Positions 17,101 through 46,666 of a stretch of 64,000 nt of DNA are shown piece after piece (the first letter of the stretch is position 1; each line of letters starts with the position of its first letter). Origin of the DNA: Thermoguttaceae bacterium (GTDB lineage: Bacteria; Planctomycetota; Planctomycetia; Pirellulales; Thermoguttaceae); contig JAFZNK010000211.1 of assembly GCA_017550965.1 (NCBI GenBank), positions 1-64,000 on the forward strand, written 5' to 3'. Under the pieces are notes generated by a model. It did no database searches. It saw only the letters and a list, made by a program, of their open reading frames with translations, and was not told the origin of the DNA. The position numbers were made by a program, and so were the translations under genes.

Positions 17101-17636
17101 ATCGCGTTCCACTCTTCTTTGGGCGCTTTGGCGAGCTTTTGAGCGCGCTCGGACATGAGTTCGTTAATGCGCGCGCTTTGCTCTTCGGACAGACCGACGC
17201 GCGTCGCGACCGCCGGATAAAGCAGACGCGAATAGCTTTTTTTCGGGTCGAAGTCGGGCGCGAGTTCCACGGCCACCGACGGCTCCGGAGGCGGAGGCGT
17301 CGGGTTGGCGAGCGCGTTGTTCATCTTTTCGGTGAACGCGGCCGCGGCGGCGGGATCTTCGGCGGGATTGGGAATTTCCGTCGTGCTTTCAATTCCCATT
17401 TGCTTGAGCGCCGCCGAGCGTTGTTCCGGGGTGGGATCGGCCGGGGGCGCCGGGGCGGCTTCCGCCGCGGGCTCCTCCGGAGCGGGTTCCTCCTGCGCGA
17501 AAACGGCGGCGGGACGCGCGCAAAACGCGCCTAACGCCAGCGCCGCATATAGAACGCACATACGCGAAGTCGGCAGGACGCGCGGCGCGCGTTCGAACGA
17601 CTTTCTCTTGTTTCTGTTCTTCTCGGTGACAGTCAT
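8112..17636 (-). CDS. Giant exported protein of tandem secretin-N/NolW-like repeats
   Basis: A 3174-residue protein starting at ATG 17636, with GAGG 9 nt upstream. A long basic N-region and a hydrophobic stretch ending ARPAAVFAQ (about residues 26-48) act as signal peptide. After a Pro/Ala-rich spacer the chain consists of more than 25 repeats of roughly 75-110 residues with beta-alpha-beta-beta-alpha pattern: a strand with hydrophobic Y/V residues, a helix, L.P..V..D, then a strand ending G/A T or equivalent, followed by EH..I and an amphipathic helix (GTQAEHDAV, WGTEEEHSII, IGTAVEHKTI, LAKEDEHAKI, RGTAIQHKQV). This is the pattern of the secretin N1/N2 (NolW-like) domain. Interruptions are an Ala-Pro-Glu linker (about 723-804), acidic/proline spacers (about 2600-2900) and a Gly/Met-rich tail. 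No C-terminal secretin barrel is seen, so a pore is unlikely; a periplasmic scaffold or binding fibre is inference. It has its own promoter and terminator. Confidence 0.85.
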   Translation of the reverse strand: MTVTEKNRNKRKSFERAPRVLPTSRMCVLYAALALGAFCARPAAVFAQEEPAPEEPAAEAAPAPPADPTPEQRSAALKQMGIESTTEIPNPAEDPAAAAAFTEKMNNALANPTPPPPEPSVAVELAPDFDPKKSYSRLLYPAVATRVGLSEEQSARINELMSERAQKLAKAPKEEWNAITLESEKALEAVLTPEQNERFKRGITEKTIVMRFSKERWADVLNWFASECGLQMVMSAPPQGTFTYSDKKAYAPKDALDVLNGYLNFKGYTLIRYNDMLILHDFKTGTLPLQYLPKITPDDLPNQSKFDYVALTIPLERRNMVAVRTTIQPYMGPYCVVRSLPGNSLMVVDSVNALREIYAAAMSVHNPDPTPEEQARINRGGRGPRGEGAPQPPPETPEWRDYELEGVAYATIRDQIEVFAPDAKPLYNPQSDTLYYLAKPSVHAVVAGLMAKLKEGADPARNAIAKTYSLDAITAADSSNLWAMARRMYREGGGGFGGFGPNASEELFEQILDSLRQQAPDATIELISASRKLFVVASASDHEKIAATLESLTTKVEETDKPVIKIYRMKNQQRRGGGGGPYGGAFDNSLFMAMRTVAPMIQATPTSDGGLLVIGTQAEHDAVAGVMEEFEASAEDPTVQNELKVYVMTTRQVQRFNTIFAQVSDSPEMRGVVRIPDTYIPTRFAVWARPAQHAQIQKIIDQIVNAEAYAQEEVVPQGLPEPQEPAEAAPAEPAPAPAEPAPAPAEPAPAPAEPAPAPAEPAPAPAEPAPAPAEPAPAPAEPAPAPAEPAPAPAEPAPAPAEPAPEPVSVEKQTLAASLENTINVANSNTYMTVIPFTHVAISTASSLMLNTIPGLDVTIDYTTPSLIVYGTKKSVEAAIQLASRLEGQLDVNLEIIPLKKELPTEVVSALPRIEPLATATYDRANQRLFVYGKKAPVERLKAYVAMIENATSDEEDGVYYLDVERDVPGALQDYVKRAVPGIELQYDQPSRRFTIIGTPTEQIAAAKLLVDAVQNLPPEDETRFYKMDEQIPDRMIDLLKERVKGMKQIERDEFDKTVLRAVAKPYQHELLAAEIEKLKENYPFRDQNTFVSYKTTKELRARFDQVKDDFTKQYGSIKILQDDANNSFAVWANPSQHEALKKLLDELATLESGEKETAILYTPKHVDSATLVSVLKDLQPNLKVTNDTVNARLIIRGSAEELDEAKGTLAAIDVLEEDAIVRTFKSYPIKGFYSYDGVGSYYSPAYYVRDLSKLVPAARVTYDYYNQALVVWGTEEEHSIIEKAVANLAEKDPLEKRILRWQIRRANYSTLSSQISAVYPSAVPTYDSASKTLVVRATNGVALDAVKELLELLDPEEPSEFDAYLNYYDVGSEPSDDLLAAVNALVPNAALVKIDAKTKQLLVIGTAVEHKTIADSVEKLAKTYGSSDLRLIPYPVYGMDVEDLVASMTKAYPSAQFDADVRGGRILARATLDDHVKISEEIARINSESGEVDPENPNKPDAIENAPGPRVVVYEVENATIAMQLRGVVTSLFPGVEVFGGSSQAAYGTRPLAKQKVTILANGREHKMIASIIESLNEKSDDELVFAIYPYGEAEVGAVEALVGNIIPDAMAVPGSAPGFGGAGAYGPRYMRMQQSQMLQTMRTTRMNSGYQSSPDAPIPFYRVDEKTKTVAVLAKEESHEQIRTALEKLAVLDVNEAKSITKVYRLAAPLAYSVSQFAPQVSPSVVATPTSAYELVAFGPEKDMEEFDKMIEGLKDGGDFDKGIRRMRLFHIPGDSRYNRDRMVNIINSNFATLGVSAYPGAISDQVITWGLDTQLDAVADFLEQIFAEPNESTYKTYPISHTDLDTAWELLAMVCPNLTITPNYEKRALVIYGTPEQHAACKAALEAYDVPSQPEVALRLATYTWDDATTYWPVYSELHAYFDQYDPVIVPSYTDYEFVVTTTEAIHEKIAKYLEMRRKDQAERSYQLRSYYLKEVNFSKIAQIVPALLPTVALYPGKGANEIFVIATPMDHAKFERTLAQLESVPEGEQADGIAPKIYETSAPAMTIAILQPQLPGAVMYALTGRRLVVWGSKTDHAYVEKALETTGEAFPTPVLKRYPLVHIRLADVLNYCTYNFSGEGYFFSSTSGDLMVSAVPAVHEQIAAMLKEMDVENPEEARYYPVAYDVSDIPAASLPYVSQAIQSISIECVQLPTSTPGFIVIYARQGEHKKIKEIVDEMLKNRPSATQRMVAYTVRRMTLAQLSQLLLPLYPNIKIGAGTSANQIVILAKEDEHAKISALVDQLNDERDDGMTSRVYRLRNSQLAVAQTAIMTMYPQATVVIDQMSRSALVKAYEDEHKKIEQLVNEIDEKDPERNTSFKVFNIGSLNFTRLIAALRNFYSGDPGFQIQLDSSSQCLIVRGTAIQHKQVEELIEEVRAGGLADPESYMQSYAIKNSNALTSLYSVFYEQGRDINMYRDYSTGKLIVIGRPEEHKLVQDILDVVAPEETELAVFDLVYVDPSTARQVFAMIETDGSYVDVRLDAASNQLFIRATPEKLEEIRQVLIKMGEKGLSKMKPFANTTERVGSSTNGRRIYMRDNEKRQEEDAQKQESDNIDLSKLEPLTPATLPVQTDDSNVAVAPIAQTPSVQVQESSGPMRSMTITGGDAAQVVQEALKNWTLNNPVTVVNGDGGIVQEKEEAAPQPAPAPEVPATENAPVDEPKPAEEQAPQPPVAATVSSLLFSANRLLVKTAFLGALVADDPAQEQPKAEEPAPVPVTENTTEAPKAVELPQAPGVYVVVNPDGSLLLSSSDEAALEEFQRKLNEAVDSMKAARSADQTPQTPETTAPANELNVAIDDSAPAPQNDEGAESDENGASLLADPNGYLSYMTEENLAKSKERVLMDSRNYTVFRVENVGVQQIVPLLQTYMADRINRRANDYGYYSSTGINVQTIGSGTQLSFQPDVALNTLMVYGTRADREAAGALIVVLDNTDLFPQPITKPYKIKVENTSPTRMAQQVLSAFSRKFQTTLLPGNLTPRIMPNVATGTLEVYAPDSLAKEIEEFVKEMDKEILEDSVRKVRVVPLESINSKVLAQYLTNLRTQQVAQQMLSTPYIGMTSPMMNPQLRAGVMGGMGGAYGGGAMYNAAARQRNMMLMGGGYGGNYGGATFVPGAAIVPGAGGATPAARTRGM
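15222..15462 (-). repeat. 21-bp minisatellite encoding AEPAPAP repeats
   Basis: About eleven consecutive 21-bp units within the giant repeat protein encode AEPAPAP, with third-position differences between units (GGC/GGA/GGG on the plus strand). It forms an extended Pro-rich linker between two blocks of globular repeats. Copy number is likely to vary between strains. Confidence 0.9.
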
Positions 17637-33610: not shown

Positions 33611-35128
33611 ATGAACTTCTATATCGAAACGGTCGGCTGCCAAATGAACACGCTCGACTCCGAACTTGCCGCCGCCGAACTTGTCGCCGCAGGCTGGACG
33701 CGAACCGATTCGCGCAAAGACGCCGACTTGATCGTCTTCAACACGTGCAGCGTGCGCGAACACGCCGAAGAAAAGATTTACAGCGCGCTCGGAAGGCTCA
33801 AACACTGGAAGACGCAAAAGCCGGGAACGCTGATCGCCGTCATGGGGTGCATGGCGCAAAAAGACCAAACGACGATTTTCAAACGCGCGCCGCACGTCGA
33901 CGTCGTGTGCGGGCCGGGCCAAATCGACCGGTTGACAAAACTTGTCGCCTCCGCCGCCGCGACCGGCGCTCAGCAAATCGCCGTGAGCGTCAACCGCTTC
34001 GAGAACAAAAACAATCCGCACGCCGTGCGCGACTCTTTTCGCCTTTACGACCCGATTCGTTTGAAAGAAACGCGCCCGCGCGTCTTTCAGGCGATGGTTC
34101 GCATCATGTTCGGATGCAATAAGTTCTGCTCCTACTGCATTGTGCCGAGCGTAAGAGGCCCCGAGCAGTCCAGACCTCCAAAAGACATTCTCAACGAGAT
34201 TAAAACGCTCGCGGACCAGGGCGTCGTCGAAGTCGTCCTGCTCGGCCAGACGGTCAACAGCTATCGATACGTCGAGGGCGAAAAGACGACGCGATTGTCC
34301 GACCTGCTCGTGGAAATCGATAAAATACCGGGGATAAGGCGCGTTCGCTTCGTCAGTTCCTATCCGACCGACATGACCGACGAGCTCCTTCAGGCGGTTC
34401 GCGACTTGCCCAGTTCGACCCCTTTTCTGCACGTCCCCGCTCAACATGGCGCGAATTCGATGTTGAAGAGAATGCGGCGGCATTATACGCTCGAAGAGTA
34501 TAAAGAGCTCGTCGACCGAATCTATCAAATTGTGCCGGGCGCGGCGATTACGAGCGATTTTATCGTCGGGTTCTGCGGCGAGACGGAAGAGGAATTTCAG
34601 CAGACGGTCGATCTGGTTCGCTACGCGCGATTCAATAACAGCTTCATCTTCAAGTATTCGGAACGGCCCGGTAACGAGGCGGCGCGAACGATGAACGACG
34701 ACGTCCCCGAAGACGTTAAAAAGCGCCGGAACAACGAACTCCTCGCCGTGCAAAACGAGATCAGTCTGGAACAAAGCAAGTCGTTTGTCGGCAAGACGGT
34801 CGAGATCCTCGTCGAAGGCCCGAGTAAACGCGAGACGAAAAATTCCCCCGTCGACGCGCTTTATGAAGAAGCCGCGCCCGTCGAAGCGACGGTCGACGCG
34901 ACGGGAAACGTCGCGCCGATTCCGGCGCAAACCGTCGCGACCGTCGACGACCTGCTCGCGAACTCCGCCCCTTCCGCGTTCGGTCGCGACGTCGTTCAGA
35001 TGACCGGGCGAACCGTATGCGATCGGATCGTCGTCTTCGACGGCTCAAGAAGCCTCGCCGGAGAGTTCCGCAAGATCAAAATTACCGACGCCACGCCCTT
35101 TACGCTCGTCGGCGAATTGGTTGAATGA
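33611..35128 (+). CDS. miaB: tRNA-2-methylthio-N6-isopentenyladenosine synthase MiaB
   Basis: A 505-residue radical SAM methylthiotransferase. The UPF0004 domain has Cys10, Cys46 and Cys80 (auxiliary cluster); the radical SAM cluster cysteines are 169, 173 and 176 (GCNKFCSYC). A C-terminal TRAM domain follows, with an insertion of about 50 residues (acidic, Ala/Val-rich, about 420-465) not usual in MiaB. It converts i6A37 to ms2i6A37 in tRNAs reading UNN codons. The 3' end of this gene (codons for DATPFTLVGELVE and the stop) is duplicated about 10.7 kb away at 45783, so the accessory island lies directly behind it. Confidence 0.94.
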   Translation: MNFYIETVGCQMNTLDSELAAAELVAAGWTRTDSRKDADLIVFNTCSVREHAEEKIYSALGRLKHWKTQKPGTLIAVMGCMAQKDQTTIFKRAPHVDVVCGPGQIDRLTKLVASAAATGAQQIAVSVNRFENKNNPHAVRDSFRLYDPIRLKETRPRVFQAMVRIMFGCNKFCSYCIVPSVRGPEQSRPPKDILNEIKTLADQGVVEVVLLGQTVNSYRYVEGEKTTRLSDLLVEIDKIPGIRRVRFVSSYPTDMTDELLQAVRDLPSSTPFLHVPAQHGANSMLKRMRRHYTLEEYKELVDRIYQIVPGAAITSDFIVGFCGETEEEFQQTVDLVRYARFNNSFIFKYSERPGNEAARTMNDDVPEDVKKRRNNELLAVQNEISLEQSKSFVGKTVEILVEGPSKRETKNSPVDALYEEAAPVEATVDATGNVAPIPAQTVATVDDLLANSAPSAFGRDVVQMTGRTVCDRIVVFDGSRSLAGEFRKIKITDATPFTLVGELVE

Positions 35129-35145
35129 GTTGTGAGAAGCTCCCT
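35085..35145. repeat. Left copy of the miaB 3'-end direct repeat (putative attL)
   Basis: About 61 bp covering the last 14 codons of miaB, its stop and 17 bp beyond. It matches 45783-45843 in the same orientation at 54 of 61 positions by hand alignment, and all seven differences are transitions. Such a repeat of a gene 3' end on both sides of foreign-looking DNA is what integration into that gene end leaves. Confidence 0.75.
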
Positions 35146-35169
35146 TTATCTCTCCCTATGAGTAATCCC

Positions 35170-35274
35170 TCATTTGACGATCATGCCCTGCGGATAGTGT
35201 GCAAGGTCACGATTGTCTATGAGGATGGCGATTGCATCCGTGTAATCATTTGATCGACAATTGGTACACTTCAT
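35170..35274 (-). CDS. Possible small CxxC peptide or fragment
   Basis: A 34-codon frame beginning MKCTNCRSND, with one CxxC pair, and ending PQGMIVK. The MKC..C start is like YgiT/MqsA-type zinc fingers, but the second CxxC pair and the rest of such proteins are absent. It may be a short relic at the left edge of the island. Evidence is weak. Confidence 0.2.
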   Translation of the reverse strand: MKCTNCRSNDYTDAIAILIDNRDLAHYPQGMIVK

Positions 35275-35358
35275 TCCCCCGCAGAATTGCCTGCGGAGTT
35301 TGCTTGTCCGTTTTTCTTCCCTCGGGATTTTTACCCTCTGGATTTTCCCGTTGCCATG

Positions 35359-35367
35359 TGTTATACT
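35359..35367 (+). promoter_or_regulatory. Extended -10 promoter upstream of the defence operon
   Basis: TGTTATACT fits an extended -10 element (TGnTATAAT with one mismatch); no good -35 is seen at the usual distance. A strong CGGAGGG follows at 35387-35393, in front of an ATG at 35400 that opens a 46-codon frame ending inside the first operon ATG. This could be a leader peptide coupling translation into the operon, or chance. Confidence 0.4.
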
Positions 35368-35379
35368 GCTTCCAGTGAT

Positions 35380-35529
35380 AACCTTTCGGAGGGATTAGCA
35401 TGGCAAAAGTTAATTCTCCCAACCATGAAAGAGCAGGAACGATTTGTTGGATTCTTACGGCAAGTCGACAAATCAAAGTATTGCTTACAGGGACTGCAAG
35501 CAGCGCTGAGAAATCGAGCAAGGTGGTGA
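35380..35529 (+). pseudogene. C-terminal remnant of a type I restriction specificity subunit (HsdS)
   Basis: The frame reads SEGLAWQKLILPTMKEQ then RFVGFLRQVDKSKYCLQ and stops at 35527-35529. The block P.(M/L)..Q..F..F..Q.DKSK is the characteristic end of the second target-recognition domain and helix of HsdS. Only about 45 residues remain; no HsdM, HsdR or other HsdS sequence is in the window. The remnant ends 4 bp before the operon start, so the four-gene system was probably joined to DNA that once carried a type I restriction locus. Confidence 0.6.
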
Positions 35530-35533
35530 GACA

Positions 35534-37084
35534 ATGCTAAAAAATGTGTGGACACGTGACGCCCACGGCGAATGGGTCAGAACCGATGCTGAAAAGACGG
35601 ACCGCAGCCATCGGTATACTGTCTCAGCGGACTCGCATATGTTTCGTTGCTATAGCTGCTTTCAATATGTTACTTTTGTCAAGGGCAACGAATACCTCGT
35701 CAGTCACTTCCGTCATAGCGCTTCGGAAACCAACAAGGACTGCGAAGACCGCAGTCTCGTCTATAGCTCAGGAACCTATTCTCCGCAGGGGCAGGCAAAT
35801 GCTCCGGACCCGCTACGTCTGTTGTTGGACAGGAATCGTGTTATACTGGAAATCGGCTTTTTGCCTGCCAGCGCTGCTGAACTGAAAAAGGCCATTGACG
35901 CAAACGCTACCATCTCCATCCATGGTTCAACGGGGAAGCCGGATATATATCGTGTAGACTACTCGCGCTTCGCTCCACATACCATGTGCTGGTTGCATCT
36001 GCCTTTGGCATGGGCGTCAAACTTCTCTGTCACAGCCAAGCCAGCAGGAAGCATACCAAAGCTCTGGTCTATCCAAAGGACAGCTCTGTCCAAATCGGGG
36101 AATTTGTTCGATTGCAGAACCGGAAGACGGGTGCCTGAGAAGAGCGACGTCGTGGTTGGAGAGGAATACTATCTCCTTTGCAGCAGGTTGACTTATCTCC
36201 GGGCAAGACGCTCCATCGAAGTCAAACAGATTGATATTTACGACGGAGAATGGAGCCTGTACAAGATCTGTGCGAGAAAATATACGGATGACGCCGCAGA
36301 TTTCTTTTTTGACCTGCACTTCCGCCTGACGACTGAGCCTGCCGACATTAATATCCTTTGGCCGCCTGTTGTTGAAGATGACGACATGGTCAACACGAAC
36401 CAAAAGAACCTGGTCTTCCTTGTCAGCGGAGAATCTGATTTTGAAGCATTTCCGACTTACGGTTGCTTTGTGACCTCCAACAGGGAGATTGCGGAGCACG
36501 AACGGATTGTCTGTATCAAAAACACCTGTGCTTTGCAAATGGTCAGCGCGTCGAGATACAATCAAAAGCTACGGAGCTTATATGTCAGACCGCTGGAGGC
36601 AGTTCCGGAGGCTCTCCCACCAAATATACATATTCTGGACGAAGACAGAAAACCTATCGCAGAAAACGAACTGACCAAGCTTCCAAAGAACGGTGTCCTT
36701 GTTCTCAATTCTGACGTTGACGCATATGTTGATGTTTCAGATCAATATGGTTTCTGCTATAGGGAAAACTTGGTGTTCGGAACGGAGCGCCGAATTACCG
36801 ATTTAAAGTATGGAATGACGCTCACCATCCGTCAAGGCCAGGATATTGTCAGGACGATCTCTATCAAACAAGCGCAGCGCTCAAAAGGCCGCCTGGGTGA
36901 AGGCGTCAAATGGAGTGGGAAAATGGTGCAGTTCCCAAGGCGGTATGCAGGTATCCTGAACCAAATTGATCGTTCAAGTGCTCTATATGCAAAGGTGTTC
37001 AATGCCCTTCAAACTGGCCGAATACCGGAGAATGGTCTCAAGAGCCTGATTAAGCTTTTGGAGGTGGATCGACATGTCGAATAA
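35534..37084 (+). CDS. DruB-like protein with CxxC/HxxH zinc motif (first gene of the defence operon)
   Basis: A 516-residue protein, not recognisable by a common enzyme motif. The N-terminal 75 residues hold C39-Y-S-C42 and H58-F-R-H61, with Cys70 nearby, a probable zinc site like the (C)..HF.H pattern of CoiA-type and other nucleic-acid-handling proteins. The rest is predicted mixed beta-rich sequence with no membrane segment. Its size and its place as first of four genes before a DUF1998 helicase fit DruB of type I Druantia; this is inference from architecture. The ATG at 35534 is preceded by AAGGTGGTGAG, and the end overlaps the next gene by 11 bp, so they are translationally coupled. Confidence 0.65.
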   Translation: MLKNVWTRDAHGEWVRTDAEKTDRSHRYTVSADSHMFRCYSCFQYVTFVKGNEYLVSHFRHSASETNKDCEDRSLVYSSGTYSPQGQANAPDPLRLLLDRNRVILEIGFLPASAAELKKAIDANATISIHGSTGKPDIYRVDYSRFAPHTMCWLHLPLAWASNFSVTAKPAGSIPKLWSIQRTALSKSGNLFDCRTGRRVPEKSDVVVGEEYYLLCSRLTYLRARRSIEVKQIDIYDGEWSLYKICARKYTDDAADFFFDLHFRLTTEPADINILWPPVVEDDDMVNTNQKNLVFLVSGESDFEAFPTYGCFVTSNREIAEHERIVCIKNTCALQMVSASRYNQKLRSLYVRPLEAVPEALPPNIHILDEDRKPIAENELTKLPKNGVLVLNSDVDAYVDVSDQYGFCYRENLVFGTERRITDLKYGMTLTIRQGQDIVRTISIKQAQRSKGRLGEGVKWSGKMVQFPRRYAGILNQIDRSSALYAKVFNALQTGRIPENGLKSLIKLLEVDRHVE

Positions 37085-39155
37085 AATCATTTCATTATGC
37101 TTTGTGAGCGAACGAACTGACAAGTATACAAAGTTTTGCAGAATCGCAGACTTGGATGATGGAAACTTTACCCCCTATACTTACAGCGTAGACACTGATT
37201 TCTATGACACAGATCGTGATCTACTCTATGGACCACCAACCATGTTATCCGAACCGGGGTCCATTGGCGTATATGAGTGGAGCGCATATCTCAATGCGGA
37301 TAACAAGTGGCGCACCAATGTCAACAAGGCGGAAGAGTACTCTTGGTGTGAGATTCTACATACAAACCATGGCTCCATAGAGGAGCTTGTGCAAGCGCTA
37401 AAATCTGGTTTCTCAATGCCAAAATATGATCGCCTTCACGATCACGATCTTATTCTTTGTTGCCGTTTCGTGGGTAACAAATGTGAAGCCATCTATGTAT
37501 CCACGACTGATGCTGAGTATAATAGTGTCGGGAAACTTTGCTTGCTTGATTCCGTAGTTGCCCTTACGCGTGTTACGTTGGATACGCGCTATGCAATCGG
37601 CGAGTGTAAGCACCGCTATTTGTCTAATTGTAGAAGAAAATACCTTGCGCGAAAAGACGCATGTCATGTAGTCGGTACTGTAGAAGTTAAAACAAAGGAT
37701 GAAGTTATCGGCGATATCATCAAGCAAAGCATAAGCAAAGATGCCCTTTCCAGGAGAGATCGACAAGCGGCTCGCTTGGCGCTTGATAAACTTTCCATGC
37801 CGTCCATTGTTGAGATGATTGCCGCGCGGTTTCAATGTTCAAGTAACCAGGCACAGAAGTGTGCAGAAGAGCATATCACACGCACCCGTGAAAGGCTGGA
37901 CTCTACAATAGCTCAACGGCTAATCGAAATGCTGATCGAGAATGATAGTGAGTCCGTTCAACGCATGAGGACCGCTGTCCAAAAACAGTGGGACGAAACA
38001 CAACAGGAGCAAATCGAAGCCGCTCAAAAAAGACAAGCTGCGGCTGCCGCAGCGTTTGAGGCGATCCGGAAACAGATAGCCGACGCGGAGGTGGCGCTTC
38101 AAAAAGCACAGGAACGGCAAGCCGAAGCTGAGTCAAAAGTCGAAGAGACTCTCGTGCTCCAAGAACAGATAGAAACAGAGATTCAGAAACGACTCGAAGG
38201 TTTTAAAGCCGATTATGCGTCCGTCTTGGTTGAAAATGCCATTATTGCTTCCACGACAATACCCCTTCAACAAAGTGGCGCGGTTAATGTGGCTTCTACC
38301 AGACATGAAGGATGGACGGTCATTCTTCCGGAAAATAGTATTCACTCAGGCGCGCTTGAAGAGAATATTGATGTCGCTGTTGAAAACTGGGAAGAAATAT
38401 GTGCTAACCAAGATATGGCGCGTGGACTGACACTTCTGTCTTTTGCCGCATATGCCAGGAAGCAACCTCTACTGGTTGTCGGAGAAGGAGCAATTCCGGT
38501 ATCGGACATAATTTCGTCCTCTATTTGTGGACAACCCGCTATCAAGATTCATGCCACCGGTGAATCGCAGGATTATCAGATCATCATTGAAGAGATTGAA
38601 AAGAAGCCGAAAGCTGTAGTTTGTCTAACCAATGGTTTGAAGACAGGCTATGAACATCTGCGGACACTTATGCAGATGTGTCCGCATCGGATGTTTGTTG
38701 TCACGGAGATGCATGCCGAGTCCTTAGCAATAGAGCCTACCAGCTTGCTTACGGTATTCCTGCCCATATTCTGTGATTATTTCTACACCGGTGGAATGAT
38801 TGAAGAACTACCAACATACGATTGTAGCAACGAGCTTCATACTAAGGCAAGTCAGATAGAAACAAGGAGTATCAAACAGGCAAGGGCGATTGTTTCGCAG
38901 TGGCTCAGTGATGGTTTCTATCCGCCGGTCGTGAGAGAAAGATGTGCAAACCTGTTTGCGGCAATGAGCTTGCTGGCCCAGCCGCTTGGCGTCAATACAA
39001 ATACTGTCATGGCGCTGGCAATCGAGTTCTTGTTTGTCCCGTTATTGAAGTGTATGCGGAAGGAAGACGCTTTGAAAACTCACCTGGAAGAAAATACTGT
39101 TCTTGACCCTGACCGCAAAGCCACGCTGATCAGTTTTATTAACTCGGAGGATTGA
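37074..39155 (+). CDS. DruC-like coiled-coil protein with a degenerate NTPase-like domain
   Basis: A 693-residue protein. After about 300 residues without known motif comes a long Gln/Glu/Ala-rich coiled coil (about 303-375). The C-terminal third resembles an AAA-type fold: LLVVGEGAIPVSD (about 465-478) sits where a Walker A would be but lacks GK(S/T); a hydrophobic strand KAVVCLTNG (about 511) sits at the Walker B position without the acidic pair; RMFVVTEMH resembles a sensor-1 strand. ATP binding is therefore doubtful. Position two in the operon and length fit DruC. A 4-bp gap separates it from the next gene. Confidence 0.65.
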   Translation: MSNKIISLCFVSERTDKYTKFCRIADLDDGNFTPYTYSVDTDFYDTDRDLLYGPPTMLSEPGSIGVYEWSAYLNADNKWRTNVNKAEEYSWCEILHTNHGSIEELVQALKSGFSMPKYDRLHDHDLILCCRFVGNKCEAIYVSTTDAEYNSVGKLCLLDSVVALTRVTLDTRYAIGECKHRYLSNCRRKYLARKDACHVVGTVEVKTKDEVIGDIIKQSISKDALSRRDRQAARLALDKLSMPSIVEMIAARFQCSSNQAQKCAEEHITRTRERLDSTIAQRLIEMLIENDSESVQRMRTAVQKQWDETQQEQIEAAQKRQAAAAAAFEAIRKQIADAEVALQKAQERQAEAESKVEETLVLQEQIETEIQKRLEGFKADYASVLVENAIIASTTIPLQQSGAVNVASTRHEGWTVILPENSIHSGALEENIDVAVENWEEICANQDMARGLTLLSFAAYARKQPLLVVGEGAIPVSDIISSSICGQPAIKIHATGESQDYQIIIEEIEKKPKAVVCLTNGLKTGYEHLRTLMQMCPHRMFVVTEMHAESLAIEPTSLLTVFLPIFCDYFYTGGMIEELPTYDCSNELHTKASQIETRSIKQARAIVSQWLSDGFYPPVVRERCANLFAAMSLLAQPLGVNTNTVMALAIEFLFVPLLKCMRKEDALKTHLEENTVLDPDRKATLISFINSED

Positions 39156-39159
39156 TGCT

Positions 39160-40140
39160 ATGGCTCTTGGTACGACAGCATTCTGGCAAGAAGCAGGTAA
39201 GCAGATGGGTATATTAAAGGATTGCTCAGAAACCGATCTGTCTTTTTGCTGTCGTGTCATGCTTTCCGCGCTTTCAAAATGGGCGCTTACTGTTGCTGGA
39301 GGATCAGAGCAGGTCAGCATTGTAAAGGTTCAGCAGATTGTCGAAGAAAAGCTTGCCGGTTATCTGAAAGTATTGCCCACCGATGATACTATCAATTCTG
39401 AAGGCATTGTGGAGACAATGTATAAGCTACTTTTGGAAAACGGCGCATTCTATCATCTGCGATACAATGTCCGACCAGCGCCACATAAGCTGATAGGTTG
39501 CGGAGACATATCACTTATACGAGGGTTGACGCCAGAAGAAAAGGTTTGCTTCAGCGGATTTGCTCCGTATGTTGTGGAGTCGTCGCCAGATGGGAACATG
39601 GCAGACGATTTCATGCTGTGGCCACTCGTCGGTTCAGAGACCATTGATCTGGTCTGGAGACGGAGCACGACTGTTGAAAGTAGAGTGAATCTTGAAGAGT
39701 ACTTGAATATTGAAAGAACCAGCGGGAGGTATTTTTCAAGCAAAAAGAACCCGAGCTGGCCTTTCACATTAGCACGAAGCAGACAGCCAGGAAATAACTC
39801 CAGCTATGAATATTACCTCATCACTGGTGATGAGGTACGGCATATACCCGGTGACTATGTGGAAGCGTCGATACATGAATACGTTCGTCTTGCAATGATG
39901 AATAAGGTTAAGAAGCAATCTGTTACCGCTACGATCAGAGAGTCTATCGTTTCTGTTGAATGTGGGTATTTGCTCCCTGCTCCGGATTTACGTTTTATTA
40001 GATTCATGTCATGGCCTGCGAATATTGCCGACATGAAAGATGCTTTCAAATTTAAATTTATACTACATCCAGCTGTCTGGCCTGGTGTCAGGGAGAGACT
40101 GATATCACTTGGATACGAGGTGCATGAGAACCATGATTAA
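39160..40140 (+). CDS. DruD-like protein of unknown function (third gene of the defence operon)
   Basis: A 326-residue protein with no membrane segment, signal or catalytic motif that I recognise. The first 110 residues look helical; the central part (about 130-230) is rich in aromatic and charged residues (SGRYFSSKKNPSWPF); the last 60 residues end in a short helix before HENHD. A ribosome-binding site (GGAGG at about 39147-39151) lies inside the preceding gene. The last 8 bp overlap the helicase start. Size and position fit DruD. Confidence 0.6.
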   Translation: MALGTTAFWQEAGKQMGILKDCSETDLSFCCRVMLSALSKWALTVAGGSEQVSIVKVQQIVEEKLAGYLKVLPTDDTINSEGIVETMYKLLLENGAFYHLRYNVRPAPHKLIGCGDISLIRGLTPEEKVCFSGFAPYVVESSPDGNMADDFMLWPLVGSETIDLVWRRSTTVESRVNLEEYLNIERTSGRYFSSKKNPSWPFTLARSRQPGNNSSYEYYLITGDEVRHIPGDYVEASIHEYVRLAMMNKVKKQSVTATIRESIVSVECGYLLPAPDLRFIRFMSWPANIADMKDAFKFKFILHPAVWPGVRERLISLGYEVHENHD

Positions 40141-43100
40141 AGGAGCGCATTACGTTCACCAGCAGCTCAAGGATGAGCTCATCCATTACCTGCAGAGTCA
40201 GTATCTTGGCCAAAGCGAGGTGCTACTTAATGCATGCAGCTACCAAATGCAACAGCCTGGCAATCTGTGGTCGCACCCATATATTGAGTCTTCGCCTGCT
40301 TACGAGAGCGTCCCTCACGGTATCGAAGGCTCAAATATACCTCAAGAATTAAAGCGCCTTTTTAGACTAATGGCTTCAATGCGGTTAGGGGTTTATGACA
40401 CTCCGTTCCGTCATCAGGTGGAGGCTCTTGAAGCCGCATGCGCAAGTAAAGACCTGTTCGTCTCCACGGGTACAGGTTCCGGTAAAACGGAGTGCTTCAT
40501 GTGGCCTCTTGTTGCAAAGATTGCAAGTGAAGCGCTCTACAAGGACAGCTGGCCCGAGCGTGGTATTCGCGTCATTATCATGTATCCAATGAATGCGCTT
40601 GTTGCGGACCAGATTGGCCGCTTAAGGCGTATGCTTGGAGATCCAAAAGGAAAGTTTATACAAGCTCTGCGTGAAGTGGCTGGTCCATCTACCAGACAGC
40701 CTCAATTTGGCATGTATACTGGCAGGACTCCTTATCCAGGCGCTTCCACCGACAGAAGTCAAGACCAATCCTTGGCAAAATCCCTTGAAAGGTTATTGCC
40801 AACATCAGCTGACGACGAGTACTATGCCGAACTGCTTAGAAGCGGGAAGATTCCGTCAAAAGCGAGCCTTCGCAACTACATCGATGAAATCAAACGCGGA
40901 AATCATATCACATCGCCAAATGACGCTGAAATGATTACTCGCTTTGAGATGCAGAAAACGTGTCCGGACATCCTTATTACAAACTACTCCATGCTGGAAT
41001 ACATGATGATCAGGACGCGGGAAGACAGAATTTGGGATGCTACGCGAAACTTTTATCATGGTCATCCTCAGGAAAAGTTGTTGTTCATCATCGACGAAGC
41101 TCATATGTATAGAGGGTCAGCCGGTGGAGAAGTCGCTCTCTTGATACATCGACTGATGGACAAGCTGGACCTTGACCGGAGTCGATTTCAGTTTATTCTC
41201 ACAACGGCCAGTATGCCTCATGAATCTGAAGCAGATCAAAAGGCTGTGCAAAAGTTTGCTTGTGATTTGACTTCTACTGAACGATGGGAATCCTTTGTGT
41301 ACCTTCGCGGACATCAAAAGGATGGAGGGAATTCTGCTGGAATTCCTATTGATGCGGATTTACTTACCAGCATTGATATCAGCCGCATTGATGAGTCCGA
41401 AATAGCGCGTCTTGATGAGCTCAACACTTTTATCCAACGGTTATCGCCCACCGTTTCCCGGAAGGATACCATGGCTGCTGCGTCGCAGTGGTTGTATCAA
41501 CATCTTGGCGAGTATTTGCCTTTCAGACTGCTATTCAGTAAGTGCCGGGGAAATGCTGTAGCTCTGGATGAGCTTGCAAATCAAATATTCCCTGGATGCG
41601 AGAATGCAATGCAAGCATTGGATACCATGCTGACTATTGCTCCGCTTGCTCACGACGAGAACGGCAACGTACTGTTTCCGGCTCGTATGCATATGCTTTT
41701 CAGAGGCTTTAGTGGTGTTTATGCATGCATGAACAAAGCATGCCCAAATTCGCATGAAGGCAACGGAATCCGGCTTGGCGACGTTTTCTTAAGCGATAAC
41801 CGTCTCTACTGTCCGCACTGTCACAGTCGCGTCTATGAACTCTATACGGACAGACGGTGCGGAGCTCTGTTCCTGCATGGGTTTGTTTCCGAGGTTCATG
41901 GCAGACAATATTTATGGCGCAACAAAGGTGCGTTTTACGCTGAAGGTCAAATGAAGGAACTTCACCTATACCTTCCAATGACAGGCGATACATTACCCGA
42001 ATATAAAAAGGGAAATGCGCGTCAACTGCGCTGTTGGTTGGACCTTCGCAGCGGTTTCATCACTTTCAATGACGCCGTGGAGAACGAAAACGAGTATAGA
42101 GAGCTATGGTACTCAATACCGGCAAAGCCTCGTAAGGATAATCCCGACCTGTTTACCTTCGGAACGTGTCCTAAGTGCAAGAGTAGTTTTGCGCATGCGA
42201 CCGTCCAGAGCTTTTCCACTCGTGGCAATGAACCGTTTTACAACGTGATTCAGTCACAGTTCCAAGTGCAGCCACCTGCCAGCGAGCAGAAAGAACAGGA
42301 CGAAAGGCTACCCAATGATGGTCGTAAGGTATTGCTCTTCTCGGACAGTCGACAAAAAGCAGCGCGTCTTGCGCGGGATATGTCTATTTCATCAGATAGC
42401 ATGGCAATTCGCAAACTGTTTATCATAGCGCTGAAACAGTTGACAGAGGAGCGGCAGAACAGTGAGACTGATCCCGTTCTCGATGACGTCTATTCCTACA
42501 TGGTGAGGGAGGCCGCTCGACAAAATCTCGATTTGTTCTCAAACGAAAGTCGGGTTATTTTTCGGGACGCTCAGCAATGGTATAAACGTCCACATACAGA
42601 GAGAACGTCACAGCGCAGGAGAAGCGCGATCAGAAGACTTCCTCTGGGGGATGCGCCTCAGGAGATGCAGGAACATTTCCTAAGGCTGTTTTGTATGCCT
42701 TATAATACGTTGATGGATAACGGCCTTTGCTATCTTGAGCCGGAATACGAAACCATGTCAGAAGCGCTTGCTGTTTTGGAAAGCAAGGGAATTCACGTGG
42801 AAGATCAAGAGTTTGTAGAGGTGTTTTCTGCCGTAACGAGGGAGTTTCTTGTTGACCAAAAGGCGCTTTGTCATTCGATTCGAGAAGAATGGCGAATGAA
42901 TGTTAGTCAGAAATTTGGTGGAGAGGATTTTGGCGTTGCCAATTTCGACGAATTGCCAACTGTCGTTGCTGATATCCTCGGCTGCAAGGATCAGTCATTG
43001 ACTCAGCAGGCATGGATGGATGCTATGAAGCAATTCATGACTGCAGGCGTGGACAATAATCGTCAGTATTTTTTAAATCCGACTCGACTCGTCGCTGTTT

Positions 43101-45376
43101 ATGATCCAGAGCACACTTGGTATCGATGTAGCAGATGTGCAAAGCTATCTCCATATATGCTCCACGGTCATTGCCAATTCTGTGGATCAGAAGAAGTAAA
43201 AGCAACCAGTGACTTCAGACGGGAATCCTTCTGGCGCGATGGCGTGCTTGGTGCGCTGGCCGGAGAGCCAATTCGCGTCATAGACACTGAGGAACATACT
43301 GCGCAACTTGGTCATAAGGATCAGCGCAATAGCGCGTTTGCGCAGACAGAAGAATATGAGATGCGCTTCCAGGACTTGGTGCGGGACGACGAAAAACCCA
43401 TTGACGTTCTTTCGAGCACCACAACCATGGAGGTCGGTATTGATATCGGCTCTCTGGTTGCGGTTGGTTTAAGAAATATGCCCCCTATGCGGGAGAACTA
43501 CCAGCAACGAGCCGGTCGAGCAGGTCGAAGAGGCACGAGTTTGTCAACGATTGTGACGTTTGCTGAGGGTGGCCCGCATGACTCCTATTACTTTGCGAAC
43601 CCGTCTCCTATGTTTAGGGGGGAGCCGAGACGTCCATGGATCGATGTGAGAAGCCCCAAACTAATAGAAAGGCATTACGCGCTCATTGTCCTAAACCATG
43701 TCGTTCGAAAACTTGGTTACGACTTGGATTCTCTGTCAGCAATAGCCTTTTTTGCAGAGGACAGTGTACAGGTTCAAACCCTCGTGCAACAAGCGGTCGA
43801 AAAGATATGCGCTTCGCAGTTGTTCCGAGATTATATTGTGGACGCCAATGCGTTTCAGGGCAGATTGATGGTATCACTCGAAAACTTGGAGAAGAAGATT
43901 GCCGCGCATCCCGACCAATACGGAGGAGGCTCAAAGCCAAACCAGCAGAAATCTTTATTGGACGCCTTGTATGAGGAGGGCATTATTCCGACATACTCAT
44001 TCCCGAAAGATGTGGTTAGCACTTATATCGAACGGGAGGACGGCTCTCTTGAACAACAGGTAGATCGTGGTTTGGACATTGCCATCAGCGAATACGCGCC
44101 GGGGCGCTCCATTGTTGTGGATAAAAAAACTTACGTCATTGGCGGTTTCTACAGGCACAACGAAGGCCGCTATAGCTTTAGACAGGCAGCTGATTATCTT
44201 GGCGACCCGAACTATGTAAAACGGTTGAAAAGATGCGGCAAGTGTGGTTGGTTCGGCTTCGCTGAAGAAGCGCAGCAAAGCATCTGTCCATTCTGTCATA
44301 GCAGAGAGGTTGAAGATATCCCTCCAATGGTGCGTCCGTGGGGATTCAGCCCTCGAGACAATAGAGCAGAAGCAGCAACTGTTGTTGAAGACTACTCAAT
44401 GAGTGAAATGCCACTATATTCAACTCTCCCTGATGAGAAATTGCTTCAACCAATAAGCGGTTATCAAGCTGTTCGCAAGGCTGTCAGGAAGGATCAGCGG
44501 ATTATATTGCTTAATACGGGCAAAGGTGACAAAGGTTTCACGGTATGCACTTCGTGTGGTGCAGCTGTCCCAGGCGATAAAGCCGAACTTCTTCGTGGGA
44601 GAAAGCGTCCTGGCAATGGCATTAACCAAGGATGTGCTCATACGAATACCAAGCACATTAATCTCGGATATGACTTCTTGACAGATATGCTTGTGCTTAC
44701 GTTCGATATGCCGACAGATTCTGTAGAAACATCGACAGAAGACGCTCGTGAATGGTTGAAAAAGGCGTCGACTTCGTTAGCTGAAGCCTTAAAGAAGGCA
44801 GCTACAATCTTGCTTGATATCGAGTATGATGAGATACAGTCTGGCTACCGTATTCGTCGAAATGATGGAATTACGAACGTTGATATCTATCTGTATGACA
44901 GCCTGTCGAGTGGCGCGGGCTATTGCGCCCAAATCGGCGAGTCAGTCGAAGAATTGTTTATAAAATCGCGAGAAATACTGTCAGGTTGTGACTGCGACAG
45001 CGCTTGCCAACGCTGTCTGAAGCATTATCGAAATCAACGAATACAGTATGATTTGGATCGATTTATGGCCATGGAACTGCTGGACTATGGCAAGACGCAC
45101 GAAATACATCCGATTTTCAGCGCACAGGAAGCATTTGACGCTATTTTCCCTCTGAGGCAGCTTTTGAGAGACGAAGGCATGGCTATTTCTACTGATAGCT
45201 CGACAGTCATCGTGAAGTGTGGAAGCAAGAGCAAGCATTGCATCGTCCATCCTGCATTACTGAAACGGCCAAGCCTTGTGGCTGAAAATTCGGTATTTGT
45301 ATCGATTGAAGCTTTAAAGTATGCAAAGCCATTTGCACTGAAAAGGATAACGGATGCTTTCAACCCAAAACCGTAA
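40133..45376 (+). CDS. druE: DEAH helicase with DUF1998 C-terminus, DruE-like
   Basis: A 1747-residue superfamily 2 helicase. ATG 40133 overlaps the preceding stop; upstream in-frame starts at 40109 (TTG) and 40124 (ATG) are alternatives. Walker A is TGTGSGKTE (about 110-118), motif Ia MYPMNALVADQ, DEAH in IIDEAHMYRG (about 318), motif III TTASM, LLFSDSRQKAARLARD, motif V TTTMEVGIDIG and motif VI QQRAGRAGRRG (about 1123). At least four zinc-ribbon CxxC pairs are inserted along the chain (near 41730-41825, 42173, 43130-43190 and 44235-44300). The C-terminus has YDSLSSGAGYC and CDCDSACQRCLKHY, the DUF1998 cysteine cluster shared by DISARM DrmA/B, MrfA and DruE. The size excludes MrfA and fits DruE. 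Expected to unwind or translocate on invading DNA together with the three upstream products. Confidence 0.8.
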   Translation: MIKGAHYVHQQLKDELIHYLQSQYLGQSEVLLNACSYQMQQPGNLWSHPYIESSPAYESVPHGIEGSNIPQELKRLFRLMASMRLGVYDTPFRHQVEALEAACASKDLFVSTGTGSGKTECFMWPLVAKIASEALYKDSWPERGIRVIIMYPMNALVADQIGRLRRMLGDPKGKFIQALREVAGPSTRQPQFGMYTGRTPYPGASTDRSQDQSLAKSLERLLPTSADDEYYAELLRSGKIPSKASLRNYIDEIKRGNHITSPNDAEMITRFEMQKTCPDILITNYSMLEYMMIRTREDRIWDATRNFYHGHPQEKLLFIIDEAHMYRGSAGGEVALLIHRLMDKLDLDRSRFQFILTTASMPHESEADQKAVQKFACDLTSTERWESFVYLRGHQKDGGNSAGIPIDADLLTSIDISRIDESEIARLDELNTFIQRLSPTVSRKDTMAAASQWLYQHLGEYLPFRLLFSKCRGNAVALDELANQIFPGCENAMQALDTMLTIAPLAHDENGNVLFPARMHMLFRGFSGVYACMNKACPNSHEGNGIRLGDVFLSDNRLYCPHCHSRVYELYTDRRCGALFLHGFVSEVHGRQYLWRNKGAFYAEGQMKELHLYLPMTGDTLPEYKKGNARQLRCWLDLRSGFITFNDAVENENEYRELWYSIPAKPRKDNPDLFTFGTCPKCKSSFAHATVQSFSTRGNEPFYNVIQSQFQVQPPASEQKEQDERLPNDGRKVLLFSDSRQKAARLARDMSISSDSMAIRKLFIIALKQLTEERQNSETDPVLDDVYSYMVREAARQNLDLFSNESRVIFRDAQQWYKRPHTERTSQRRRSAIRRLPLGDAPQEMQEHFLRLFCMPYNTLMDNGLCYLEPEYETMSEALAVLESKGIHVEDQEFVEVFSAVTREFLVDQKALCHSIREEWRMNVSQKFGGEDFGVANFDELPTVVADILGCKDQSLTQQAWMDAMKQFMTAGVDNNRQYFLNPTRLVAVYDPEHTWYRCSRCAKLSPYMLHGHCQFCGSEEVKATSDFRRESFWRDGVLGALAGEPIRVIDTEEHTAQLGHKDQRNSAFAQTEEYEMRFQDLVRDDEKPIDVLSSTTTMEVGIDIGSLVAVGLRNMPPMRENYQQRAGRAGRRGTSLSTIVTFAEGGPHDSYYFANPSPMFRGEPRRPWIDVRSPKLIERHYALIVLNHVVRKLGYDLDSLSAIAFFAEDSVQVQTLVQQAVEKICASQLFRDYIVDANAFQGRLMVSLENLEKKIAAHPDQYGGGSKPNQQKSLLDALYEEGIIPTYSFPKDVVSTYIEREDGSLEQQVDRGLDIAISEYAPGRSIVVDKKTYVIGGFYRHNEGRYSFRQAADYLGDPNYVKRLKRCGKCGWFGFAEEAQQSICPFCHSREVEDIPPMVRPWGFSPRDNRAEAATVVEDYSMSEMPLYSTLPDEKLLQPISGYQAVRKAVRKDQRIILLNTGKGDKGFTVCTSCGAAVPGDKAELLRGRKRPGNGINQGCAHTNTKHINLGYDFLTDMLVLTFDMPTDSVETSTEDAREWLKKASTSLAEALKKAATILLDIEYDEIQSGYRIRRNDGITNVDIYLYDSLSSGAGYCAQIGESVEELFIKSREILSGCDCDSACQRCLKHYRNQRIQYDLDRFMAMELLDYGKTHEIHPIFSAQEAFDAIFPLRQLLRDEGMAISTDSSTVIVKCGSKSKHCIVHPALLKRPSLVAENSVFVSIEALKYAKPFALKRITDAFNPKP

Positions 45377-45497
45377 CGAGGCTCGTTTACAATAATTGAC
45401 ATTGCGTAAAACGGGTTTTCTTCAAAAGTTGGGAAAAAATAAAGCACAATTTCCAACCCGATTCCTAAGGATCCCCGACGATGATTATAACCGGCCT

Positions 45498-45767
45498 CTA
45501 TTCCTCAAATGTTCGTTGAAAAGAGATAGAACAGGGATTTTCGAGCGCCCCGGAACGCGAGATTTCCCAAGCTCTGTAATTCGCGTCGGTTCCTTCCGCC
45601 GCGTTTCCGTCGGTCGTCGATGATCCGACCGCTGTAAGCAACTCCCGATTTTCAAGCGCATCGATTCTCATCTTTTGGCGCTTGGGAGCGGATTGAATAC
45701 GTTCGGTTTTCTTGCCAAAAAGCAAACTACAAAAGTTTCGTAACGAGGCGTTCATGATTATTTCCAT
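45498..45767 (-). pseudogene. N-terminal fragment of a LEPRQLL-type surface protein
   Basis: An 89-codon minus-strand frame. The start MNASLRNFCSLLFGKK, basic stretch and RIDALENRELLTAV match the N-terminus of the giant protein at 49320 (SGLVNRVLSSKE, then MEPLEDRQLLAV). After about 60 residues it loses any family character and stops. Such proteins usually have hundreds of residues, so this is a truncated relic. It lies between the end of the defence operon and the right miaB repeat and has host-like codon use. Confidence 0.6.
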
Positions 45768-45782
45768 CCATGAAACTGGAAC

Positions 45783-45843
45783 CCGACGCCACGCCCTTTA
45801 CGTTTGTCGGCGAATTGGTCGAGTGAGTTGTAAGAAACTCTCT
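45783..45843. repeat. Right copy of the miaB 3'-end direct repeat (putative attR)
   Basis: A second copy of the miaB end: in frame it reads DATPFTFVGELVE and stop, followed by the same 17-bp tail with three transitions. There is no miaB sequence before it. Compared with 35085-35145 it has seven transitions and no indel. Confidence 0.75.
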
Positions 45844-46591
45844 GGCGTTACGAGGCGAACCAGTAGAGGACGTGATGTTTGATTTTGGCTCCGCGTTGTT
45901 TACAAATTCCCATGCGACGACAAGTGAGAAACGTCTCGCGCGAAGCGCGGATAGCCGTCGCGTGACCGCGACGAAAAATTGCGCAAGCAATTTTTAAACG
46001 AGCGTTGTGTTGTTCATGCAACCCGCTCGCACGGCGAGCGGCTCGGAGACGCGTTTTGGCGTCGCGTTGTTTGAAAGATACTGTGTTAACGGGGGATATT
46101 GTACTTCCCGCCGCCGGACTCCGAGCCACAAGGGCTCTGCGTCCTTTAGAAGGCGGCTTGCGAACTGTAGGCGTAGCGTTGCGTTATTTGAGAGATCTTG
46201 CGTTTTGGCGTCGCGTTGTTTGAAGGATACTGTGTTAACGGGGGATATTGCACACCCCGCCGCCGGACTCCGAGTCACAAGGGTTTTTGGCGTCGCCGCT
46301 CGTTGGCGGCTCTGCGTCCTTTAGAAGGCGGCTTGCGAACTGTAGGCGTAGCGTTGCGTTATTTGAGAGATCTTATGTTTTGGCGTCGCGTTGTTTGGGG
46401 GAGAACGAAGTCGACGCGTCGCCTTAAGCGTCGAGCCGCCGCCTGTAGGCGGCGGGTTCGTGGATTTTGGCGCCGCTTTGTTTACAGAATCTCTTTTTTT
46501 GGCGCCGCCGGAACGCAGAACGCGTCGCCGGGGAAAAACAAAAAAACGAGAGAGCCGGACGACTCCCTCGTTTTTCAAGGAAACGAAACAG
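45844..46591. repeat. Repeat-rich non-coding stretch with a ~150-175-bp tandem duplication
   Basis: Two tandem units, 46051-46199 and 46200-46374, start GTTTTGGCGTCGCGTTGTTTGAA, share GATACTGTGTTAACGGGGGA and end in TTGCGTTATTTGAGAGATCTT; the second carries a 26-bp insertion near 46285, and a third partial unit begins at 46375. A separate 31-bp element (GATTTTGGCTCCGCGTTGTTTAC) at 45881-45911 recurs with changes at 46463-46493. Frames seen here on either strand only mirror the repeats. No gene is supported. Confidence 0.7.
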
Positions 46592-46666
46592 TGGGCGCAC
46601 ATGGATTCGGACCATGGACCTCAGCCTTATCAGGGCTGCGCTCTAACCAAACTGAGCTACGCGCCC
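46592..46666 (-). tRNA. tRNA-Ile (anticodon GAU)
   Basis: On the minus strand a full cloverleaf can be drawn. The acceptor stem GGGCGCG pairs with TGCGCCC (one G-T), the D arm is GCTC/GAGC, the anticodon stem CAGCC/GGCTG encloses CTGATAA with anticodon GAT, and the T arm is CATGG/CCATG with loop TCCGAAT. Discriminator A is followed by CTG, so CCA is not encoded. GAU reads AUC and AUU codons. Confidence 0.95.

Follow-up and report, generated by a model that had tools for sequence, protein, structure and literature searches.

What does an operon that resembles a Druantia defense system but lacks druA represent: a variant of that system, its remnant, or an unrelated class? Four genes of a gut Thermoguttaceae bacterium (Planctomycetota) raise this question. 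They lie in a stretch of 64,000 nucleotides, hereafter the window, which corresponds to positions 1 to 64,000 of contig JAFZNK010000211.1. In type I Druantia, druA is usually listed first. A first-pass annotation, made from the sequence alone, had matched the four genes by order and size to druB-C-D-E and had proposed a druA-less variant, a decayed system, or a related undescribed type. We consider it probable that they form a four-gene variant of Druantia type I (DruB-C-D-E, without DruA), horizontally acquired from the gene pool of gut Bacillota, with the 3' end of miaB as its point of entry.

Identity of the four genes

The open reading frame (ORF) coordinates reproduce exactly the sizes and the tight coupling first described. 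The genes lie on one strand, are separated by an 11-bp overlap, a 4-bp gap, and an 8-bp overlap, and have uninterrupted frames (table 1). All are full length, with lengths normal for their families. The length of the fourth is counted from an ATG; an alternative start is the TTG at 40109. The segment has a GC content of about 46.6–49%, compared with 55–60% in its surroundings, and is therefore compositionally foreign.

The identity of the fourth gene as druE of class 1 is clear at the sequence level. Its product scores 1666 bits with the PADLOC model DruE1, 638 with DruE2, 589 with DruE4, 507 with DruE3, and 49 with the DISARM protein DrmA. The earlier description of a DEAH helicase with DUF1998 agrees with its matches to DEAD (PF00270, 1.9e-19), Helicase_C (3.9e-7), and MZB/DUF1998 (PF09369, 5e-12). 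The motifs GTGSGKT, DEAH, and QRAGRAGR are all intact, as they are in 82–83 of the 83 DruE proteins of the druA-less clade described below. The canonical DruE of Pseudomonas putida plasmid pKF715A, to which the window protein is ~31% identical, reaches 2332 bits on the DruE1 model. In the tail beyond the MZB domain, the only conserved parts are an HYxNQ...LDR stretch and a cluster of four cysteines. A D...ExK pattern, a nuclease signature, is not conserved there, which agrees with the report of an inactivated Vsr nuclease for type I Druantia (PMC12458937).

The first three genes are more diverged. With PADLOC, protein 3 matched DruD1 (27 bits), protein 2 was marginal with DruC1 (17.7 bits), and protein 1 had no match, so that the profile search suggested by the first-pass annotation found DruD and missed DruB. 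For the canonical pKF715A locus, in which an annotated DruA is followed by B, C, D, and E, the models for A to D gave 715, 762, 902, and 386 bits. We built family alignments of 54 (B), 50 (C), and 48 (D) sequences; each alignment was then run against canonical DruB, DruC, and DruD with hhalign. The B family matched DruB alone (92% for P. putida, 91% for genome G164), the C family DruC alone (80% for P. putida), and the D family DruD alone (72% for P. putida); all cross-comparisons remained below 10%. Among the fetched ORFs, hidden Markov models (HMMs) of the families also picked out DruB (8e-9) and DruC (2.5e-10) of P. putida. Because the hhalign matches are one-to-one and the family HMMs find canonical DruB and DruC, genes 1 to 3 are identified by sequence comparison as diverged druB, druC, and druD, and the proposed correspondence to B-C-D-E holds.

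The low identity of DruE, together with the failure of PADLOC to see DruB and its faint detection of DruC, would also fit a separate class (DISARM, ARMADA, BRIGADE, or another YprA-family system) that merely resembles Druantia. We regard this as highly improbable. DruE1 leads the other Druantia types by about 1000 bits and, among the rival YprA-family systems, DISARM and Dpd by far more. The products of the three other genes match DruB, DruC, and DruD, and the operon has neither the PglX-type methylase nor the BrxHII-type helicase that define ARMADA (PMC12458937).

Searches of Pfam, NCBIfam, and PDB sequences indicated no function for genes 1 to 3. In DruB, residues C39, C42, F59, H61, and C70 are invariant in the 54 sequences and form a zinc-type motif, after which come beta domains (predicted local distance difference test score of the predicted structure, 84.8). 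The motif may resemble CoiA-type zinc modules, to judge from a sub-threshold match to DUF7830. A PDB fold search with DruB was uninformative, as it returned generic immunoglobulin-like beta-sandwich matches alone (Z at most 7.8). In the predicted structure of DruC, a coiled coil of ~94 residues (292–385) precedes an AAA+-like domain (about 405–690). The nearest folds of this domain, all at Z 10–12.7, are RavA (Z 12.7), the SCCmec Cch helicase (Z 12.2), MCM, and BrxL (Z 10.6); keratin-type PDB matches of DruC were dismissed as coiled-coil artefacts. The AAA+ domain is probably inactive, because a Walker A motif (GxxxxGK[ST]) occurs in 0 of 50 DruC homologs. This agrees with the inactivated CnuB/McrB-like proteins encoded by Druantia types I and II (PMC12458937).

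A clade of relatives lacking druA

As first reported, no druA is visible in the window. The profile PF14236 (DruA, DUF4338) extends this absence to the genome assembly of the window, which is about 90% complete, and finds nothing either in the 49 genomes hosting relatives. As a positive control, PF14236 gave a match in five of five plasmid records whose annotation includes DruA/DUF4338. An HMM built from three canonical DruA proteins likewise found none in the window or in loci L001–L082. These relatives were located by their DruE and comprise 80 loci from a genome collection and 2 viral contigs. Since B, C, D, and E are present in that order at 70 of them (52 with more than 1.5 kb on both sides), the gene set is more than a chance assembly. 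The question raised by the first-pass annotation, whether druA is consistently absent from homologous loci, receives a uniform answer: it occurs in 0 of these 70 complete loci, 58 of which have more than 1.5 kb visible upstream of druB. The loci are mostly from gut Bacillota, but Pseudomonadota, Planctomycetota, Actinomycetota, one Bacteroidota metagenome-assembled genome (MAG), and one Methanogenium are also represented. A relative from a gut Thermoguttaceae (L028) is among them.

In a FastTree phylogeny of 93 DruE proteins, all 83 druA-less rows, including the window, form one clade with a support of 100, apart from the druA-bearing rows. A mixture-model tree of 25 rows gives the same split (Shimodaira–Hasegawa-like approximate likelihood ratio test, 100). 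One row grouping with canonical type I (L098) shows no druA; its contig ends upstream and it is uninformative. The druA-less B-C-D-E clade is monophyletic and separate from druA-bearing type I. The DruE nearest to that of the window is from a Desulfitobacteriaceae MAG of the Bacillota (52%).

The missing druA, an islet that stands alone without other defense genes, and the persistence upstream of an 80-codon ORF of unclear origin are also what a decayed type I Druantia might leave, in which druA was lost recently and the system no longer functions in this genome. This is very unlikely given four genes of full and normal length, intact helicase motifs, and the absence of druA across the clade (70 complete loci), which makes its loss or non-gain ancient. 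Because none of the 70 complete relatives has druA and both trees recover the clade as monophyletic, the druA-less state is a clade-level variant and not the decay of one copy. Among the options first proposed, the druA-less variant thus stands and the decayed copy does not. The clade is widespread and represents a branch of Druantia type I that has had no name until now. Searches of openly accessible papers on Druantia-like systems and on Druantia with Eco47II found no description of it.

One Anaerobiospirillum genome (L030, L099, L100) has two B-C-D-E sets in direct succession, the second of them cut. A further DruE lies on a second contig and may be the continuation of that cut set.

Insertion at miaB and neighboring genes

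The foreign segment that had been noticed behind miaB is an insertion. In a congener with 93% identical MiaB (G1090), the site is empty: window positions 35106 and 46536 correspond to points 68 bp apart, versus 11.43 kb here, and within ~70 bp of miaB begins the sequence leading into tRNA-Ile. In further genomes of the genus, miaB likewise lies near tRNA-Ile. The two copies of the 61-nt repeat begin with 20 identical bases, and no integrase gene is present between them. We infer a site-specific integration at the 3' end of miaB, by an integrase now absent or acting in trans.

Table 1. Features of the window and of neighborhoods upstream of druB at related loci.
Feature	Location	Strand	Description
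miaB	33611..35128	+	host tRNA methylthiotransferase gene; site of the insertion
Left repeat copy	35085..35145	+	61 nt; miaB 3' end including the stop; 89% identical to the right copy
Inserted DNA	35129..46535		~11.4 kb, relative to the congener
druB homolog (gene 1)	35534..37084	+	516 aa; N-terminal CxxC...FxH...C zinc-type motif, remainder mainly beta domains
druC homolog (gene 2)	37074..39155	+	693 aa; beta-rich N-terminus, coiled coil, C-terminal AAA+-like domain without Walker A
druD homolog (gene 3)	39160..40140	+	326 aa; PADLOC DruD1 (27 bits) and hhalign
druE (DruE1; gene 4)	40133..45376	+	1747 aa; YprA-family DEAH helicase, MZB/DUF1998 domain
Right repeat copy	45783..45843	+	61 nt; miaB 3'-end repeat beyond the island; putative attachment-site scar
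tRNA-Ile(gat)	46591..46666	-	Host side of the insertion
Restriction-modification slot	L039-L041, L044-L047, L050-L052, L054-L057, L082		Upstream of druB; L047 has the methylase without the restriction enzyme
Small helix-turn-helix protein	L007:1993-2226, L012:4386-4619, L016:5143-5376, L071:5103-5336, L002:4298-4564		Upstream of druB

Three other features of the window were recorded. The 80-codon ORF (35287–35529) stops 5 bp short of druB. By eye, its end (MKEQERFVGFLRQVDKSK...) resembles the C-terminus of HsdS, the restriction specificity subunit; it has no Pfam match and we make no claim from it. Imperfect direct repeats of 84–95 nt (GCGTTTTGGCGTCGCGTTGTTTGAA...), not found in the short spacer of the congener, occupy positions 46051–46402 between the island and tRNA-Ile. 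On the minus strand, an ORF of 3174 aa (8112–17636), in which the Secretin_N domain (PF03958, 212 bits) recurs, encodes an unusually large secretin-like protein.

At 14 of the related loci, a type II restriction enzyme gene directly precedes druB, mostly at a distance of 15–50 bp. It belongs to the Eco47II family in eight and to the EcoO109I family in six. This count leaves out L081 (a repeat of L041), L047 (methylase alone), and L080, which is labelled as a restriction-modification (RM) locus in the tree through a weak downstream methylase match. A C5-cytosine methylase, visible at nearly all of these loci, precedes the restriction enzyme wherever the contig reaches that far; that of L040 has an HTH_26 N-terminus. 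As the two unrelated families interleave in the DruE tree, this slot has probably seen more than one exchange of the restriction enzyme. Both IMG/VR contigs (L081 and L082) hold RM genes and a B-C-D-E set; the DruE of L081 is identical to that of a Selenomonas chromosomal locus, so that the set may be carried by a prophage or by an island that was taken for one.

The slot conserved in this sub-branch and the absence of a nuclease motif from the DruE tail could mean that a fifth, non-homologous component replaces DruA, for instance a methyltransferase and a nuclease acting in trans, and that without it the four genes do not make up a complete module. We find this rather unlikely, since neither the window nor most of the clade has a conserved neighbor: the commonest Pfam family accounts for 4 of 80 upstream genes. 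The few downstream neighbors scanned are mixed (RNA methyltransferase, recombinase, type IV restriction enzyme, and others).

At some loci, a small helix-turn-helix (HTH) protein of 77–88 aa, encoded 16–85 bp before druB, is similar to the HTH portion of the methylase in the RM branch and is possibly a controller. The methylase matches in these loci (L002, L007, L012, L016, and L071) involve the HTH part of the query alone and do not denote methylases.

Proposed mechanism and comparison with known systems

The operon is presumably an anti-phage system. By analogy with type III, its DruE would be an ATP-driven YprA-type motor engaging abnormal or replicating phage DNA. Type III DruE prefers 3'-tailed DNA, and activation has been argued to be set by subtype-specific partners (PMC13192584). 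By the same kind of analogy, DruB with its zinc motif, DruC as a coiled-coil pseudo-AAA+ scaffold, and DruD may form the part for sensing or recognition and assembly. As judged by sequence motif alone, none of the four proteins has a nuclease signature, so DNA damage would result from remodeling by the helicase or from a nuclease of the host or of a neighbor. In the RM sub-branch, the adjacent methyltransferase and restriction enzyme might provide both the cutting and the marking of self. For the druA-less clade, DruA is probably not required or can be replaced. We tentatively raise the possibility of a distinct Druantia subtype with a free DruA slot, filled in one branch by an interchangeable type II RM pair working with DruE: the methylase would mark self, the helicase find or open foreign DNA, and the restriction enzyme cut it.

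Several points weigh against a druA-less type I defense system. The homology of B, C, and D relies on weak matches to single canonical sequences (72–92%), with hhalign coverage that omits the larger part of DruC and roughly half of DruB. Absence of druA from draft genomes is never absolute, and canonical type I is thinly sampled (about eight loci). The absence of a nuclease is read from sequence motifs only, and we know of no phage assay for any clade member.

A multi-phylum clade without detected druA defines a minimal B-C-D-E core and makes the role of DruA testable by adding or removing druA. It also shows that the B and C genes of druA-less systems escape standard profiles, and the swappable restriction enzyme slot suggests that Druantia and restriction-modification are connected in a concrete way.

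ARMADA and DISARM share with the window a YprA-family helicase with a DUF1998/MZB region. ARMADA differs by its BrxHII-type helicase and PglX methylase, and DISARM (DrmA, a separate DrmB, and a methylase) by the low DrmA score and by DUF1998/MZB, which is fused into the helicase in the window. Druantia type III (DruH-DruE) has the DruE helicase core in common, but none of the four proteins matches DruH and DruE3 reaches 507 bits at best. Its DruE has PLD domains (PMC12458937), whereas the tail of the window DruE has no nuclease signature. Druantia type II (DruM cytosine methylase, DruF, DruG, and DruE), which is type IV CoCoNuT in PMC12458937, resembles the window in its YprA-family helicase and its inactivated AAA+/GTPase-like coiled-coil partner (PMC12458937). 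The cytosine methylase DruM is a core component there, and the RM sub-branch also has a similar C5-methylase as a neighbor. In contrast, no match to DruM, DruF, or DruG was found in the four proteins, the DruE2 score is 638 bits against 1666 for DruE1, and the methylase is missing at the window and part of an RM pair in the sub-branch.

Druantia type I (druA-B-C-D-E), represented by P. putida pKF715A (L083), is the closest counterpart. The window differs from it by the absence of druA, by B and C genes too diverged for PADLOC calls, and by a DruE in a separate clade. Because DruA (PF14236) is lacking, we file the system as a variant of type I and not as a standard member. The very large DruE with DUF1998/MZB, general to Druantia, is present, the helicase is of class DruE1, and the homologs of druB, druC, and druD occur in the same order and with similar sizes. 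These data support a new, clade-level druA-less variant of Druantia type I.
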